Notes under the pieces: model-generated
Seen by the model: only the letters and a program-made list of their open reading frames with translations
What the model was told of the DNA's origin: nothing
Databases searched by the model: none
Position numbers and translations under genes: made by a program
In this document: piece after piece, positions 1-5,141 of the stretch
How positions within the stretch are numbered: the stretch's first letter is position 1
Layout: each line of letters opens with the position of its first letter
Source: Gemmatimonadota bacterium
Lineage (GTDB): Bacteria > Latescibacterota > UBA2968 > UBA8231
Direction of reading: 5' to 3'
Assembly: GCA_002712305.1 (NCBI GenBank)
Contig: PATE01000090.1
Coordinates: forward strand, 1 to 5,141
DNA length: 5,141 nucleotides

Positions 1-700
1 CGAAGGCGATCGAACCGGGTGTGTATTTGTAGATGAGCGTGCGGCGCTGGTGCGACGCATTCCAAGGCAGGGTTCCGTGTGTGCAGGCTTCTGTGAAGAT
101 CACCGCGTCCCCCGCCTTCACGTGAATCTCCTGAACCAACTCTTGATGTTCCTCGTAGTAGGAGAAACTCTGCGGGATGGGATAGTTCGACTTGTGGCCA
201 CCGGGGACGATCGCCACGCCCCCATCGCCGGGCCCTTCGTCGGCCAGCATGAACTCCACCACCGTCATGCCACAATACATTCGTCCATGATTGTATCGAT
301 ACGTCTGTGTAAAGTCCGGGCGCTCGACGCCGCCCCCGTGCAGATAGTGGCCGGCGCACCCCTTCTCCATCGTGACGATCTCCGGACCCTGGTTGATCCG
401 GTAGCCGTCCCCCTGCAGTTCTTTCAGATACGGATCGATCCGTGGGTGTACCAGCAGATCACGGAAAGGCTCGCACCAGGGACGCTCCCACCCCAGCAGG
501 CCTGACATCCAGTGCTGCCGTACCGGACTTGTGAGTGTCTTCGAATCTCCTTCAAGGCGCCGCTCATGGGGTGCCAGCAGGTGAGCGTGCTCATCGATCG
601 CCTCGTTGCACCGCGCCACCTGCTCTGCCGGCAGCACATCGCGCAGAATGGCGAAGCCGAGCAGATCGAAGAAGTATTTCTCCTCGTCAGTCAGGCCCAT
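1..700 (-). CDS. PhyH-family Fe(II)/2-oxoglutarate dioxygenase-like protein, LHGG subgroup (3' end outside window)
   Basis: An open frame runs from ATG at 698-700 to the left edge without a stop, giving 233 residues. The ATG has a GGTGAGG ribosome site (708-714) seven bases upstream and lies 36 bases after the amidohydrolase stop, so it is the last visible gene of the operon. It resembles the phytanoyl-CoA dioxygenase family: a cupin-type core with GHYLHGGG at about 117-124, a GDGGVAIVPGGHKSNYP segment at about 158-173, and THGT with H208 followed 11 residues later by R219. That matches the spacing of the second iron histidine and the 2-oxoglutarate arginine in human PHYH. The acidic ligand of the usual HxD motif is absent; the sequence offers H118-x-L or H121-x-G. 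From memory, LHGG is usual in a large uncharacterised bacterial subgroup. The family oxidises C-H bonds in the cytoplasm; the substrate here is unknown and it need not be phytanoyl-CoA. Confidence 0.88.
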   Translation of the reverse strand, partial: MGLTDEEKYFFDLLGFAILRDVLPAEQVARCNEAIDEHAHLLAPHERRLEGDSKTLTSPVRQHWMSGLLGWERPWCEPFRDLLVHPRIDPYLKELQGDGYRINQGPEIVTMEKGCAGHYLHGGGVERPDFTQTYRYNHGRMYCGMTVVEFMLADEGPGDGGVAIVPGGHKSNYPIPQSFSYYEEHQELVQEIHVKAGDAVIFTEACTHGTLPWNASHQRRTLIYKYTPGSIAF

Positions 701-736: not shown

Positions 737-1489
737 CTAGTCGAGCCCAAGCAGCCTCTTCGCATTTCCACCGATCACCTTTCGCTTGTCATCATCACTC
801 AAGTCGGCGGTGATGATCTTGCCCAACTGCGTTCGCGGATCCATGAGCGGCTGATCCGAGCCGAACAGTACCCGGTCTGCACCGGCCCCTTGCACCAACT
901 GCTCGATCACGCCAGGTTGCCGGTAGGTCGAACAGGTCTCGAGATAGAAATTGTCGTGGGTGCGCGCCATCTCGATCGACTGGATCCGACAGGGCTCGAT
1001 GTTGCCCGCATGGCCAGCCACGAAGAACGCCCCGGGAAAGTGCCCTGCCGCGACGCCCAGTCGGGCGGGTTGCGAGACGTATCCTCCATCGGTGTGGGAG
1101 ATCACCACCAGGCCGCGTTCCTGGGCGAAGGAGAACACAGGATGCCATGCCTCATGATCGAGCGGATAGGTGGTGTAGGGTGGATAAATCTTGATCGCCC
1201 GGAGACCGAGGTCGTCCATGGCCCGTTCCAACTCAGGCACCATCCTGTCTGACATCATGGGTGATACGTAGGCGAAGCCGATGAAACGATCCGCATGCCG
1301 GGCGACGAAGGCGGCTGTCGCGTCATTGCCCCGTCGGCCATCGGGATGAAAGATGTTGAACACGCATGCCCGATCGACACCGGCCGCATCCATCGCGTGC
1401 AGCATCCGAGAGGGATCATCGAGCATGGCCAACGACTCCCAGTTGCCCACGTGACCGTGAAAATCGATGACGGGTGCATCGCCGATCAT
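737..1489 (-). CDS. Amidohydrolase family 2 (TIM-barrel metal hydrolase), intact active site
   Basis: The protein has 250 residues and the usual Amidohydro_2 layout: DFHGHVG with H11 and H13 after beta-strand 1, K100 in a LRAIKIYPPY strand, H132 in VVISHTDGG, H160 in VAGHAG, D212 in LFGSDQP, and a C-terminal GNAKRLLGLD helix like the family's 'N-A-x-R-L-F/L' ending. These residues can bind one catalytic divalent metal, so it is probably an active cytosolic hydrolase or decarboxylase. Family members include sugar lactonases, 2-pyrone-4,6-dicarboxylate lactonase and aminocarboxymuconate decarboxylase. Its ATG overlaps the stop of the upstream homologue by four bases (ATGA at 1486-1489), and GGAGGGG (1495-1501) sits five bases upstream. 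The overlap implies translational coupling and roughly matched amounts of the two proteins. The substrate cannot be read from sequence; a lactonase role fits the sugar-acid neighbours but is inference. Confidence 0.9.
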   Translation of the reverse strand: MIGDAPVIDFHGHVGNWESLAMLDDPSRMLHAMDAAGVDRACVFNIFHPDGRRGNDATAAFVARHADRFIGFAYVSPMMSDRMVPELERAMDDLGLRAIKIYPPYTTYPLDHEAWHPVFSFAQERGLVVISHTDGGYVSQPARLGVAAGHFPGAFFVAGHAGNIEPCRIQSIEMARTHDNFYLETCSTYRQPGVIEQLVQGAGADRVLFGSDQPLMDPRTQLGKIITADLSDDDKRKVIGGNAKRLLGLD

Positions 1490-2286
1490 CGGGTCCCCTC
1501 CGACTCGTCTTGTTCCGCGGGCAGCCGCAGAAGCTCACGTGCCGTGCCATCGAGGATCCGCTGCAACTGCCAGGGCTCGATGGCGAGCCGGTGCAGTCCC
1601 CACAACACGGGACCCATCGCATATCGAGGCGCGTACGAACCATAGAGAAGGCGTCGCGCCCCAACGCTCGTCACCAGATCTTCGATCGCGCCGAGCGTTT
1701 CGTGCCGGCTCAGTTCGAGGCAGGCTCTGGGAAGGTGCCGGAGCAGTTGTGGGATGTAGGGCGCGTGCGTGTAGTGGCCGCCCACCAGCACAACGCTCAA
1801 CTCGCGAAACTCCGCCAGCGTGTTCGCCAGTTCCATGGGATCATTGTCAGCCAGGGAGATCCACAGGGGCAGCTGTTCCTGCTGCAGCCAGGTCAGTAGA
1901 TCGCCGTAGATCCAACTCGTGAGCGGCGTCGACGTCGACGTCGTATCATGGAGCCGCACGGCACGAACGTGACCCTCCGCATGCAATTGCTGCAGCTGGA
2001 CCAGTGATTCTGGTGCACCGGAAGCCATCCATGTTGGCAGCAGGCGACCGTCGGAGCCATCGATCCACTCGTGCAGTCCATCATTTCCATCGAGGGCGCT
2101 GATCATCTCGCCCTGCAGAGGGTAGATCAAGGCCGAGTCCACGCCGTGGCGGTCCATCTCTGCCAGCAAAGGCGCTGGTTCCCCGAAGGGTGAGGGCTGA
2201 TCGTGGCGATGCCCCACGCCGACGTTGGCATCGACGACAGGCGTGTCGCAGCGAAAACTCAGCTCACTCACGGTCACGTCGCCCAA
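1486..2286 (-). CDS. Degenerate amidohydrolase family 2 homologue (probable pseudoenzyme)
   Basis: The protein has 266 residues and a TIM-barrel pattern that aligns by eye with the next gene. PVVDANVGVG (about 16-25) matches PVIDFHGHVG, LWISLAD (141-147) matches VVISHTD, VGGHYT (169-174) matches VAGHAG, and LYGSYAP (214-220) matches LFGSDQP. In this alignment HxH has become N21-x-G23, the strand-5 histidine is L145 and the catalytic aspartate is Y218; only H171 remains. It should therefore not bind the usual metal. The start is TTG at 2284-2286, chosen because AAGGGGA (2294-2300) lies seven bases upstream; GTG codons at 2275-2277 and 2269-2271 are alternatives. The frame is intact, so it appears to be kept for a function. 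The shared ATGA with the intact homologue suggests a heteromeric partner, regulator or ligand-binding subunit. Alternatively it is an uncharacterised subfamily with different chemistry. Confidence 0.82.
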   Translation of the reverse strand: MGDVTVSELSFRCDTPVVDANVGVGHRHDQPSPFGEPAPLLAEMDRHGVDSALIYPLQGEMISALDGNDGLHEWIDGSDGRLLPTWMASGAPESLVQLQQLHAEGHVRAVRLHDTTSTSTPLTSWIYGDLLTWLQQEQLPLWISLADNDPMELANTLAEFRELSVVLVGGHYTHAPYIPQLLRHLPRACLELSRHETLGAIEDLVTSVGARRLLYGSYAPRYAMGPVLWGLHRLAIEPWQLQRILDGTARELLRLPAEQDESEGTR

Positions 2287-2345: not shown

Positions 2346-3359
2346 TCAGTTGGCATTCGCAGCCTGCAGTGCCGCGTGGATATACCCGAAGACATACGCC
2401 ATACCGACACGGCCCGGTTCCGGCCCGGACATGCCTGGGACGTGATCGGGCATGATCATATATGGGTACTCGACCTCTTTGAGCACACGCATCACCTCGA
2501 TCATGTCCACGTCCCCCTCATCGGGGAAGACCTCGACGAAGCTGCCGAGAGATCCTTTGATGTTCCGGTAGTGGATGTTGAAGAGTTTCTTGCGCTCACC
2601 GAAGTAGCGGATCGAGTCGAAGATGTCCCTGGATGGGTTCTCGAGACATTCTGAATGGCAGCCTACGCAGAAGTTCAGCCCGTTGTAGTCACTCGGATAC
2701 AGATCGATGAGTTTCTTGAACCCCTCCGTCATGCCCAGCACTCGATCCACACCGCGATAGGTAACCCCAACACCGATGCCCGGGTCGGACGGATGGCAGG
2801 CCATCTGCACCTTGTATTCCTCTGCCACGGGAATAACACGTTTGAGAAAGTGATCGATTCGCGACCACATCTCGTCTGCATCGGCGGGACCATCCTCAAA
2901 CACGGTATCTTCCGTGGCGCCTTTCTTTCGCGGCGATCCCTTTTCCAGCAATTCCTGGTAGTCGAAGGTGGACAACCGCGCACCTCCGCGTCCGGTCTTC
3001 GACTCGGTCCGCAGGTGACCGAGGATCGTAATGTTGTAGTTGAAACCGCGCAGCCCCGCTTCCCCAGCCATGCGAATCGCATCACACACGTGATCTAGCT
3101 GTCTTTCCCGTTCATCACTGGGTTTGAGGAAAATGGCCCCGGTCTCCTTGTCGGCCAGGGCACTGCCGGAGCCGATCAGGTGCATCATTTCGAGATTGAT
3201 GCCGAACTTCGCATAACGCTCCCGATAGCCGGTCAGTAGATCCGTCGTCCACTCCGCCAACGGCTCTCTGGGCGTGACGTCGATGTTGTTGACACCCAGC
3301 TGGGCCAGTTGCTCCAGATCATGGTCTTCAGTGAAGTGCCCCTGTGTTCCGATATACAT
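2346..3359 (-). CDS. Mannonate dehydratase-like (UxuA family) TIM-barrel protein
   Basis: The protein has 337 residues when started at ATG 3357-3359, where AGGAG (3365-3369) lies five bases upstream. The frame stays open 62 codons further, but that stretch is low-complexity and overlaps the control region, so it is not included. UxuA removes water from D-mannonate to give 2-keto-3-deoxygluconate in hexuronate breakdown. Family signatures appear in order: H189 in ACHPSDPG, C231 in GLNFCVGCHSE, H263 in FNIHYRNIKG, FVEVFPDEGDVDM at about 274-286, and D305-H306 in MPDHVPG. The His, Cys, His and Asp match the family's metal ligands, and the histidine of PDH is a catalytic residue in studied members. 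It is shorter than E. coli UxuA (about 394 residues) and could act on a related sugar acid, so no gene symbol is given. It is the first gene of the minus-strand operon, 59 bases before the amidohydrolase pair. Confidence 0.85.
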   Translation of the reverse strand: MYIGTQGHFTEDHDLEQLAQLGVNNIDVTPREPLAEWTTDLLTGYRERYAKFGINLEMMHLIGSGSALADKETGAIFLKPSDERERQLDHVCDAIRMAGEAGLRGFNYNITILGHLRTESKTGRGGARLSTFDYQELLEKGSPRKKGATEDTVFEDGPADADEMWSRIDHFLKRVIPVAEEYKVQMACHPSDPGIGVGVTYRGVDRVLGMTEGFKKLIDLYPSDYNGLNFCVGCHSECLENPSRDIFDSIRYFGERKKLFNIHYRNIKGSLGSFVEVFPDEGDVDMIEVMRVLKEVEYPYMIMPDHVPGMSGPEPGRVGMAYVFGYIHAALQAANAN

Positions 3360-3360
3360 A

Positions 3361-3425
3361 GTCGCTCCTGTGCTCTGCTTGTTGGCTTGTGGGGTTGTGG
3401 CGTGGGCGGTGCGGGTTTGGGGTGC
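3361..3425 (-). promoter_or_regulatory. 65-base T-free, C/A-rich 5' leader of the operon
   Basis: The plus strand has no A from 3361 to 3425, so the transcript strand has no U over the bases just before the first operon gene. It is rich in C and A and contains the ribosome site near its end. Such a leader would be largely unstructured. C-rich, G-poor RNA is also what Rho loads on. The lack of T is a direct observation; either role is inference. Confidence 0.4.
3365..3369 (-). promoter_or_regulatory. Ribosome binding site of the mannonate dehydratase-like gene
   Basis: The minus strand reads AGGAG five bases before ATG 3357-3359. It sets the start at MYIGTQGHF rather than at upstream in-frame codons that would run through the control region. 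Confidence 0.65.
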
Positions 3426-3426
3426 A

Positions 3427-3432
3427 AGTGTA
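3427..3432 (-). promoter_or_regulatory. Candidate -10 box for the minus-strand operon
   Basis: The minus strand reads TACACT, four of six matches to TATAAT, directly before the T-free leader. A start near 3420 would make that leader the 5' untranslated region. No good -35 is visible 16-18 bases upstream; the inverted repeat lies there instead, which would suit an activator or repressor. This is a weak call. Confidence 0.25.
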
Positions 3433-3437
3433 GGACG

Positions 3438-3459
3438 CCCATGGTCCCATCGCCATGGG
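3438..3459. promoter_or_regulatory. Operator-like inverted repeat CCCATGG-N8-CCATGGG
   Basis: Two perfect seven-base arms (3438-3444 and 3453-3459) are separated by eight bases in the gap between two divergent genes. Arm centres lie about 15 bases apart, close to one and a half helical turns. It overlaps the expected -35/spacer region of the candidate minus-strand promoter, so it may bind a dimeric regulator of the operon. CCATGG is itself a palindrome, which raises the odds of a chance match. Confidence 0.35.
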
Positions 3460-3553
3460 AGAGGAGATCCGACGTTGCCTGAACACCTCCGGCACACCAC
3501 AATACCGGCTGAGACCCTGGCCTCATCCCGACATTGCTGATGCAAAGGCGCCC

Positions 3554-3979
3554 ATGACCCTCCACATCGCCAACCGACGCGAACCGTTCATCGATCGCTT
3601 CCTCATCGACCGACTGAGTGGGGGTGCCATCAACCGACTGCACCATCCACGGCGTGAAGGTATCGCTCCGCGCTTCCACCAGCCGTGGGAAGGCATCCTC
3701 GCTCTTCACGTGACGATTCTCCAGGACGGCGATCTCTACCGGATGTACTATCGCGGCTGGGTGTCGACGCATCTCGGCGAGAAAACGAAGAGGGGCAGAC
3801 CATGCCCGTCACGTGTTACGCCGAGAGTCAGGACGGGATCCACTGGGACAAACCGGAACTCGGTCTGTGCGAATGGTGTGGTTCGACGGCGAACAACATC
3901 AACCTCACCGGCCCCCGTGAGGTGACGCAGCGGTTTTTCACCGATGCTCGACGACCGACCCGGTGTCCCCGCCGATGCT
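3554..3979 (+). pseudogene. Truncated, twice-frameshifted beta-propeller (GH32-like) protein gene
   Basis: ATG at 3554, with a weak AAAGG site five bases upstream, opens REPFIDRFLIDRLSGG then HQPWEGILALHVTILQDGD and LYRMYYRGW. This is the N-terminal pattern of a large planctomycete/verrucomicrobial family related to GH32-type five-bladed beta-propellers (family recalled from memory). After K77 (3784) the original frame loses similarity, and the next frame continues with TMPVTCYAESQDGIHWDKP and ELGLCEWCGSTANNINL. Near 3938 the homologous text returns to the first frame (SPMLDDRPGVPADA) and ends at about 3979. The original frame meets TGA at 3923-3925. The jumps sit at AAAA (3782-3785, one A too few) and TTTTT (3934-3938, one T too many). 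About 142 codons remain of what I recall as a protein of several hundred residues. It is very probably non-functional, although sequencing errors could explain the indels but not the loss of the 3' end. Confidence 0.75.
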
Positions 3980-3989
3980 GTGTGCGCGT

Positions 3990-4139
3990 CGCGAAGAGCA
4001 TGCGCCCCACACCGGCTTCGATCTCGTAGTCAACGGCGGTCCAGCAGTCCTGGGTGAGGCGGTCACTGATGGCGGCGTTAGGGGTCGCGCGGCTCAGGTC
4101 GAGGAGGTACACCGAGGGGTCGTCGACATCAGCTGTCAT
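3990..4139 (-). pseudogene. 5' remnant of an unrecognised minus-strand gene
   Basis: From ATG 4137-4139, with GGAG (4148-4151) eight bases upstream, about 50 codons look like real protein: VYLLDLSRATPNAAISDRLT at 10-29, then QDCWTAVDYEIEAGVGRMLFA to residue 50. Beyond that point the frame runs on to a stop at 3828-3830, but its composition becomes Arg/His-rich and it lies antisense to the facing beta-propeller remnant. The real coding part therefore seems to end at the junction around 3980-3990. I do not recognise the family. The small frame just upstream (4129-4248) may be its original N-terminus, split off by another frameshift. It follows the enolase-type gene in the same direction and was probably co-transcribed with it. 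Confidence 0.5.
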
Positions 4140-4248
4140 CCGCCAAGCTCCAGCGTGTATGCTTCAGGTGGTAGGCGAGTTCGCCAGTGTAGTCACAGTC
4201 CAGAATCGGCGAGACAAGCAGTTGCTCTTCCCCGGTCTCTCTCGTCAT
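4129..4248 (-). CDS. 39-residue small ORF overlapping both neighbours
   Basis: ATG at 4246-4248 overlaps the TGA of the enolase-type gene as ATGA, and the frame ends in TGA at 4129-4131, 11 bases inside the next gene's start at 4139. The peptide has credible composition: acidic start MTRETGEEQ, then LLVSPILDCDYTGELAYH, then LKHTRWSLADDS. No strong ribosome site precedes it, so coupling to the upstream stop would be its route to translation. There are two readings. It may be a small standalone protein, or it may be the true N-terminus of the 4139 remnant, joined by one indel near 4130-4137 so that LADD runs into DVDDPSVYLL. The second fits the decay seen around it. It has no recognised family and no membrane segment or signal peptide. 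Confidence 0.45.
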   Translation of the reverse strand: MTRETGEEQLLVSPILDCDYTGELAYHLKHTRWSLADDS

Positions 4249-5141
4249 GCGTCCACGGGCCAGCGCACGACGTGCACCGCATCCCGTTCATGCGCCTCCC
4301 AGTCAGGTTCGTTGGGGCGCACCGGTGTCCAGGCGATCTGCAGCTGCCCGTCCTCGACATACGGCGTTCCGCGACAGTCCAGTTCCTCGTCAGCGGGCCT
4401 GCCCCGGCCGTCGCGCACGATCTGCACGACGCCGCCTACCGTCTCGTACAGCGGGTCGTTGGCCACGGCCAGGACCACCTGCGGGTCGCCACCGTGCACC
4501 TGGGCGCCGAAACTCTCGGCCAGCTGCGCCTGCTTCACCTGCCCGGTGATGCCGATGCCGCGCTGTCGCACGATGTCGGCTGCCTGCAGCGCCAGGTACG
4601 GCGCCGTGTTGAAGGGCTGACCGCCGATGGCGCCGATCCACTCCAGCGTCAACACCGGCAGGTCGAGGCTGGCGCACAACTTCTGCAGACCGAGGATGTC
4701 GTAGTCCTGCAGCGGCTCCTCGATCCATGTGTAATTCAGCGACTCGAGCACGCGCCCGATCTGCACCGCTTCGGGATAGGTGTACGACTCGACGGGATCG
4801 TGCAGCAGCTGAAAGTCATCACCCAAGGCGGAACGTAGCTCGATGGCCATTTCGGTGTTGCCTTTGACGCCCCGGTACGAGTGGTCCTTGCAGCCCACGT
4901 AGCCTTCGTCTTTGGCCCGCAGCCCATCGGCGACCAACTCGTCGATCGTGTTGCCGCCGATGTTGCGGTACGCCGGCACACGTTCGCGCGCCGCGCCGAG
5001 CAGCTTGTAGATCGGCAGGCAGGCGTGCCGGCTGGCCAGGTCCCACAGCATGCGGTCCACCTGATCGAGTACCTGACGGCCGGTGTAGAAGAAGCGCTGC
5101 GCGTACCACAGCCGTTGCCACACGTATTCGCGATCGAACAC
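4245..5141 (-). CDS. Enolase-superfamily enzyme, mandelate racemase subgroup (5' end outside window)
   Basis: The frame is open to the right edge; 298 residues are visible and about 90-100 residues of N-terminal capping domain are missing. A GTG coincides with the last bases but is probably internal. The ligands follow mandelate racemase spacing: D115 (QLLHDP), E141 (WIEEPL, 26 later) and E167 (LTLEW, 26 later). The catalytic dyad is H216 (QVHGGD) with D189 twenty-seven residues earlier, and E233 sits near the usual electrophilic Glu. Strand 2 has K85-D-H87 where mandelate racemase has KxK. Such enzymes abstract the proton next to a carboxylate and then racemise or dehydrate; most bacterial ones are acid-sugar dehydratases. 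With a UxuA-like gene nearby, a sugar-acid dehydratase is the likeliest role, but the substrate is undetermined. The downstream genes at 4248 and 4139 overlap or follow closely, as in an operon. Confidence 0.87.
   Translation of the reverse strand: MFDREYVWQRLWYAQRFFYTGRQVLDQVDRMLWDLASRHACLPIYKLLGAARERVPAYRNIGGNTIDELVADGLRAKDEGYVGCKDHSYRGVKGNTEMAIELRSALGDDFQLLHDPVESYTYPEAVQIGRVLESLNYTWIEEPLQDYDILGLQKLCASLDLPVLTLEWIGAIGGQPFNTAPYLALQAADIVRQRGIGITGQVKQAQLAESFGAQVHGGDPQVVLAVANDPLYETVGGVVQIVRDGRGRPADEELDCRGTPYVEDGQLQIAWTPVRPNEPDWEAHERDAVHVVRWPVDA

Follow-up and report, generated by a model that had tools for sequence, protein, structure and literature searches.

The zinc ligands of 2-amino-3-carboxymuconate 6-semialdehyde decarboxylase (ACMSD; PDB 2hbv, 4ifk, 7pwy) comprise an HxH motif, a strand-5 His and a strand-8 Asp, and a strand-6 His is absent from the ligands listed (PMC11650718). 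The enzyme is a homodimer that has no activity as a monomer, because a substrate-binding arginine comes from the neighboring subunit (PMC9021598, PMC11650718). Elsewhere in the amidohydrolase superfamily, an inactive chain, the pseudo-dihydroorotase of the Pseudomonas aspartate transcarbamoylase (ATCase) complex, is required for the activity of its partner (PMC7053772). In trypanosomes, AdoMetDC and its catalytically dead paralog, the prozyme, together form the active heterodimer (PMC6221367).

The window analyzed here is the whole 5,141-nucleotide stretch of contig PATE01000090.1 (assembly GCA_002712305.1, Latescibacterota). It contains two tandem amidohydrolase genes of which the first encodes a degenerate (dead) chain stripped of metal ligands and the second an intact (live) chain. 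The dead chain has the Amidohydro_2 fold in common with ACMSD (Z ~22), but ACMSD is a homodimer of metal-bearing chains whereas the window pair includes one dedicated metal-ligand-free copy with its own gene. The pseudo-dihydroorotase is likewise inactive, but its partner is a transcarbamylase and it lies in another branch of the superfamily, whereas the dead chain of the window is paired with an Amidohydro_2 enzyme that is its own active paralog. The AdoMetDC and prozyme pair joins a dead paralog with a live enzyme as is proposed here, although the fold is unrelated and the system is eukaryotic. We know of no coupling or fusion of the AdoMetDC and prozyme genes of the type seen with the window pair. 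No published description of an inactive or non-catalytic amidohydrolase subunit pair was found in a non-exhaustive search of the open-access literature, Pfam, NCBIfam and PDB, which is consistent with the suggestion in the initial annotation that the arrangement may be undescribed.

Gene organization of the locus

The two frames are intact on the minus strand and share an ATGA overlap at 1489-1486, as the initial annotation had described. The genes and their surroundings are as follows.

1486-2286, minus strand: degenerate (putative pseudo-) subunit of 266 aa, encoded by the first gene of the pair; Amidohydro_2 fold lacking metal ligands
737-1489, minus strand: intact, putative catalytic subunit, 250 aa, Amidohydro_2 (PF04909, 116 bits)
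1486-1489, minus strand: overlap of the pseudo-subunit stop TGA with the catalytic-subunit start ATG, sequence GAGGGGACCCGATGATCGGCG
2346-3545, minus strand: UxuA-like/xylose-isomerase-like TIM barrel gene upstream of the pair, adjacent or close to it in relatives too
2-700, minus strand: phytanoyl-CoA dioxygenase (PhyH) gene downstream of the pair, truncated at the window edge; such a gene adjoins the pair in relatives as well
4245-5141, minus strand: enolase-superfamily acid-sugar dehydratase-like gene (MR_MLE), truncated at the window edge

The TTG start of the 1486-2286 gene is tentative: GTG codons at V4 and V6 could serve instead, which would shift the start by as many as five codons. 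The homology that had been claimed for the two products is evident in BLASTP (23% identity, E 5e-7). The live chain exceeds the PF04909 gathering cut-off of 26.4 bits with its score of 116, whereas the dead chain falls below it at 18.5 bits; 27 of 32 dead homologs match PF04909 at E 0.001. Against the L-fucono-1,5-lactonase model NF052480 the live chain scored 11.6 bits, under the NCBIfam cut-off of 400.

In the window and in relatives, the pair is accompanied by genes for UxuA-like barrels, enolase-superfamily dehydratase-like proteins, PhyH dioxygenases, class-III aminotransferases and Gfo/Idh/MocA oxidoreductases. These neighbors point to the catabolism of sugar acids or other small acids of that kind, in which the pair might act as a hydrolase or lyase. 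Between the UxuA-like and MR_MLE genes, short overlapping frames on the plus strand (3554-4029) resemble remnants of one broken gene.

Active-site residues of the live and dead chains

The five active-site residues that the initial annotation assigned to the live chain are all present in the 1489-737 product. In the dead chain, the replacement of HxH by N21-x-G23 and of the strand-8 Asp by Y218 was verified. The annotation had also placed the lost strand-5 His at L145; the loss stands, but an alignment of 95 sequences and the end of the predicted strand both place the equivalent position one residue away, at S144, whereas BLASTP gives L145. The discrepancy has no consequence, since neither residue is a ligand. 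The positions are listed below.

1457-1459, minus strand: H11 of the catalytic subunit, HxH metal ligand
1451-1453, minus strand: H13 of the catalytic subunit, HxH metal ligand
1094-1096, minus strand: H132 of the catalytic subunit, strand 5
1010-1012, minus strand: H160 of the catalytic subunit, strand 6
854-856, minus strand: D212 of the catalytic subunit, strand 8
2224-2226, minus strand: N21 of the dead chain, where HxH has its first His; 71/90 homologs, and 27/27 of the window clade, carry Asn
2218-2220, minus strand: G23 of the dead chain, in place of the second His of HxH
1855-1857, minus strand: S144 of the dead chain, in place of the strand-5 His
1633-1635, minus strand: Y218 of the dead chain, in place of the strand-8 Asp
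1774-1776, minus strand: H171 of the dead chain, on the loop after strand 6 with Y172; nearly invariant in the window clade
1765-1767, minus strand: H174 of the dead chain, on the same loop and likewise nearly invariant in the window clade
1846-1848, minus strand: D147 of the dead chain, pseudo-site region; polar and near-invariant within the window clade
1705-1707, minus strand: R194 of the dead chain, pseudo-site region; polar and near-invariant within the window clade
1624-1626, minus strand: R221 of the dead chain, pseudo-site region; polar and near-invariant within the window clade

All four positions that supply zinc ligands in ACMSD are thus replaced in the dead chain (N21, G23, S144 and Y218). 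The equivalent of the strand-6 His is ambiguous, being G169 with MAFFT and H171 with BLASTP, and the alignments accordingly disagree on whether H171 is a retained strand-6 His. Residues D147, H171, H174, R194 and R221 each are kept in 26 or all 27 of the dead chains in the window clade, whereas dead chains of the other clades do not conserve them, and H171/Y172/H174 as a set was not found in dead chains outside the window clade. With these residues conserved, the dead pocket of this clade may bind a ligand of its own, or even metal.

Conservation of the pairing

Among the 119 relatives searched, 44 genomes encode proteins that match the degenerate chain; most of the genomes surveyed are fragmented. 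With the A1 profile built from this protein, dead chains of the window type (type 1) scored at least ~154 bits and all others 134 bits or less, a gap which separates them from ordinary amidohydrolases. Ninety degenerate domains were collected together with their surroundings. Homologs of the dead protein do not mostly occur alone: 87 of the 90 adjoin, or are fused with, an intact amidohydrolase partner on the same strand, two lie truncated at contig ends, and for the one remaining domain a type-1 live partner is encoded in the same direction ~5.3 kb further downstream. The dead gene precedes the live gene in 86 of the 87 pairs, and the exception (L044) is a member of a second lineage. None of the 90 dead homologs retains two metal ligands. 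By comparison, all five positions (HHHHD) are kept in 83 of the 85 partners that could be scored, and the other two carry Asp at strand 5. Adjacency and ligand loss, which the initial annotation had singled out for joint scrutiny, are therefore conserved together.

The converse holds also. In the class (47 genomes), every type-1 live match that lacked a complete dead neighbor lay either at a contig end, one such case retaining the tail of a fused dead domain, or at a fragmented locus (G012:C205) that retains pieces of the dead gene. Judged by these comparisons, the pairing of dead and live chains is ancient and near-obligate.

Evolutionary history and fusion of the two chains

The 89 type-1 dead chains are recovered as a single clade (support 0.986) in a 224-domain tree, which also groups their live partners. 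Pairs of a second set, mostly in live-then-dead order, group apart from these on both the dead and live sides. The topology fits one old duplication, in a tree that has no outside root and in which the dead/live split is moderately supported. The dead gene is under purifying selection, with dN/dS of 0.16-0.17 compared to 0.13-0.15 for the live gene. Distances between dead chains correlate with those between live chains (r = 0.71, null maximum 0.09), a value which includes shared species history and which falls to 0.31 among distant pairs.

These data bear on whether the degenerate gene is a decaying duplicate heading for loss. The missing metal ligands are all that speaks for decay, whereas the frames are intact in dozens of genomes, dN/dS is ~0.16, the dead chains constitute one old clade, and fusion has occurred repeatedly. 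Decay was rejected on these grounds and is given practically no chance of being correct.

Fused forms are scattered over several separate parts of the dead-chain tree and, by our reading, dead/live fusion would have arisen at least three times. A genome scan located fused forms in metagenome-assembled genomes (MAGs) of Latescibacterota, Armatimonadota and Zipacnadia, all of the named fused loci from these groups being in MAGs. These occurrences also suggest a placement of the window's class in Latescibacterota. The scan was queried with fused proteins of one clade, as the diverse dead-chain alignment lacks a sufficiently conserved stretch. A type-1 fusion (WP_276256065.1) also is encoded by plasmid NZ_CP119797.1 of an isolate of the cultured archaeon Halomontanus rarus, where it directly adjoins a type-2 fusion (WP_276256064.1) near a mandelate-racemase-family gene and another amidohydrolase gene. 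Matches to Paenibacillus in the scan were rejected as pairs because they proved to be single live enzymes, and a search of viral contigs for the pair returned no match.

Predicted structures

The dead chain is predicted to adopt the Amidohydro_2 fold (pLDDT 83). The structural matches listed for this model are amidohydrolase-family structures, the closest among those listed being CAC3332 (3cjp; Z 25.3, rmsd 2.4, 226 aligned residues). The best sequence match of the live chain in the PDB is BB4693 (3irs; E 1e-13). CAC3332 and BB4693 are amidohydrolases that resemble the dead and live chains, respectively, and both are single uncharacterized chains.

A natural fusion of 529 aa from another clade of the family was predicted by AlphaFold2 as one compact unit (pLDDT 85, pTM 0.86), in a model based on an 11-sequence alignment and without an inter-domain error estimate; the alignments used for structure prediction held 11 and 12 sequences. 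Two equal domains of undefined orientation are expected to give a clearly lower pTM.

A probable heteromeric enzyme with a non-catalytic subunit

The two genes probably encode the partner chains of a single heteromeric enzyme of the amidohydrolase family, with the dead barrel serving to complete or gate the live site. A heteromeric enzyme with a pseudo-subunit had been suggested in the initial annotation, and the joint conservation of adjacency and ligand loss argues for it at the level of sequence. As the pair, sometimes fused, turns up repeatedly across bacteria and also in a cultured archaeon, the "dead" half very probably is a required subunit of the enzyme. The 1489-737 product would carry the metal and perform the chemistry, whereas the 2286-1486 product would be a pseudo-barrel that packs against the live chain, a contact that is presumed for the unfused pair of the window, and that has been retained in this partner role since the ancient duplication.

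In the likeliest working mode, the dead barrel would act across the subunit interface to complete or gate the active site of the live chain, because the ACMSD monomer is inactive without the arginine of its neighbor and the fusion is predicted to be compact. By analogy, the dead chain could be the dedicated non-catalytic counterpart of the neighboring subunit in ACMSD. Position 176 of the dead chain, on the loop after strand 6, is Arg in 57 of the 63 homologs outside the window clade and is a candidate for the residue supplied in trans in those proteins. The absence of this loop Arg inside the window clade, where H171/Y172/H174 are found instead, counts against an ACMSD-like role there. Conserved adjacency and fusion also are seen in enzymes of the same pathway that have no common active site, which counts against a shared site more generally.

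Two other explanations concern what the dead chain does for its partner. It may merely stabilize or assemble the live chain, for example in folding or metal loading, and have no role in substrate binding. Obligate pairing, translational overlap and fusion would suit any stoichiometric partner, and the Pseudomonas ATCase complex needs the pseudo-dihydroorotase for activity (PMC7053772), so this account carries some weight although it is considered unlikely: polar residues at or near the barrel mouth, which ought to drift in a pure scaffold, are conserved, including N21 (71/90), S193 (79/90) and, outside the window clade, R176 (57/63). Alternatively, the dead chain may be a separate enzyme or binding protein of the same pathway, either metal-free or differently metalated, in which D147, H171, H174, R194 and R221 create a new site, with co-expression and channeling, not a common active site, as the reason for the pairing. 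The near-invariance of these pocket residues in the window clade exceeds what a purely structural subunit would need, and Asp or Glu occupies the strand-5 position in other dead clades. However, pairing and fusion are conserved in the rest of the dead family where the pocket residues are not, and the fusion modeled as one compact unit derives from another clade; a separate enzyme is deemed distinctly unlikely.

The heteromeric enzyme may be placed in a wider scheme that is plausible but put forward tentatively. An ancient Amidohydro_2 duplication would have produced a pseudo-barrel that gives residues or a second ligand pocket in trans, followed, in bacteria and archaea, by divergence into two lineages of opposite gene order (dead-live or live-dead) and by several independent fusions, with both halves annotated as amidohydrolases or not at all. 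Many entries labeled "amidohydrolase family protein" may then be half-enzymes. The live chain expressed alone could appear misleadingly inactive, and the degenerate chain is easily overlooked. The pair also would be a clean system in which to study the passage from a symmetric dimer to catalytic and non-catalytic subunits, as separate-gene and fused forms can be compared.

Other amidohydrolase pairs

The genome from which the window derives contains two further dead/live pairs, both of the second type, at L053 (C93:19500-29500) and L099 (C132:1-4000). The live gene (HHHHD) is first in each case and the degenerate gene second, with NWPNG and CWQGH, respectively, at the five positions. A third locus in the same genome (L100; C9, ~37830-39267) comprises tandem amidohydrolases that both are devoid of HxH and in which the strand-8 Asp is changed to Asn. 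The Klebsiella pneumoniae plasmid pC708_1 (CP067510.1; L115) carries a sugar-PTS operon, with no match to this locus in E. coli genomes, that includes an intact amidohydrolase and a second, non-adjacent one in which N replaces the first His and the strand-8 Asp is retained.
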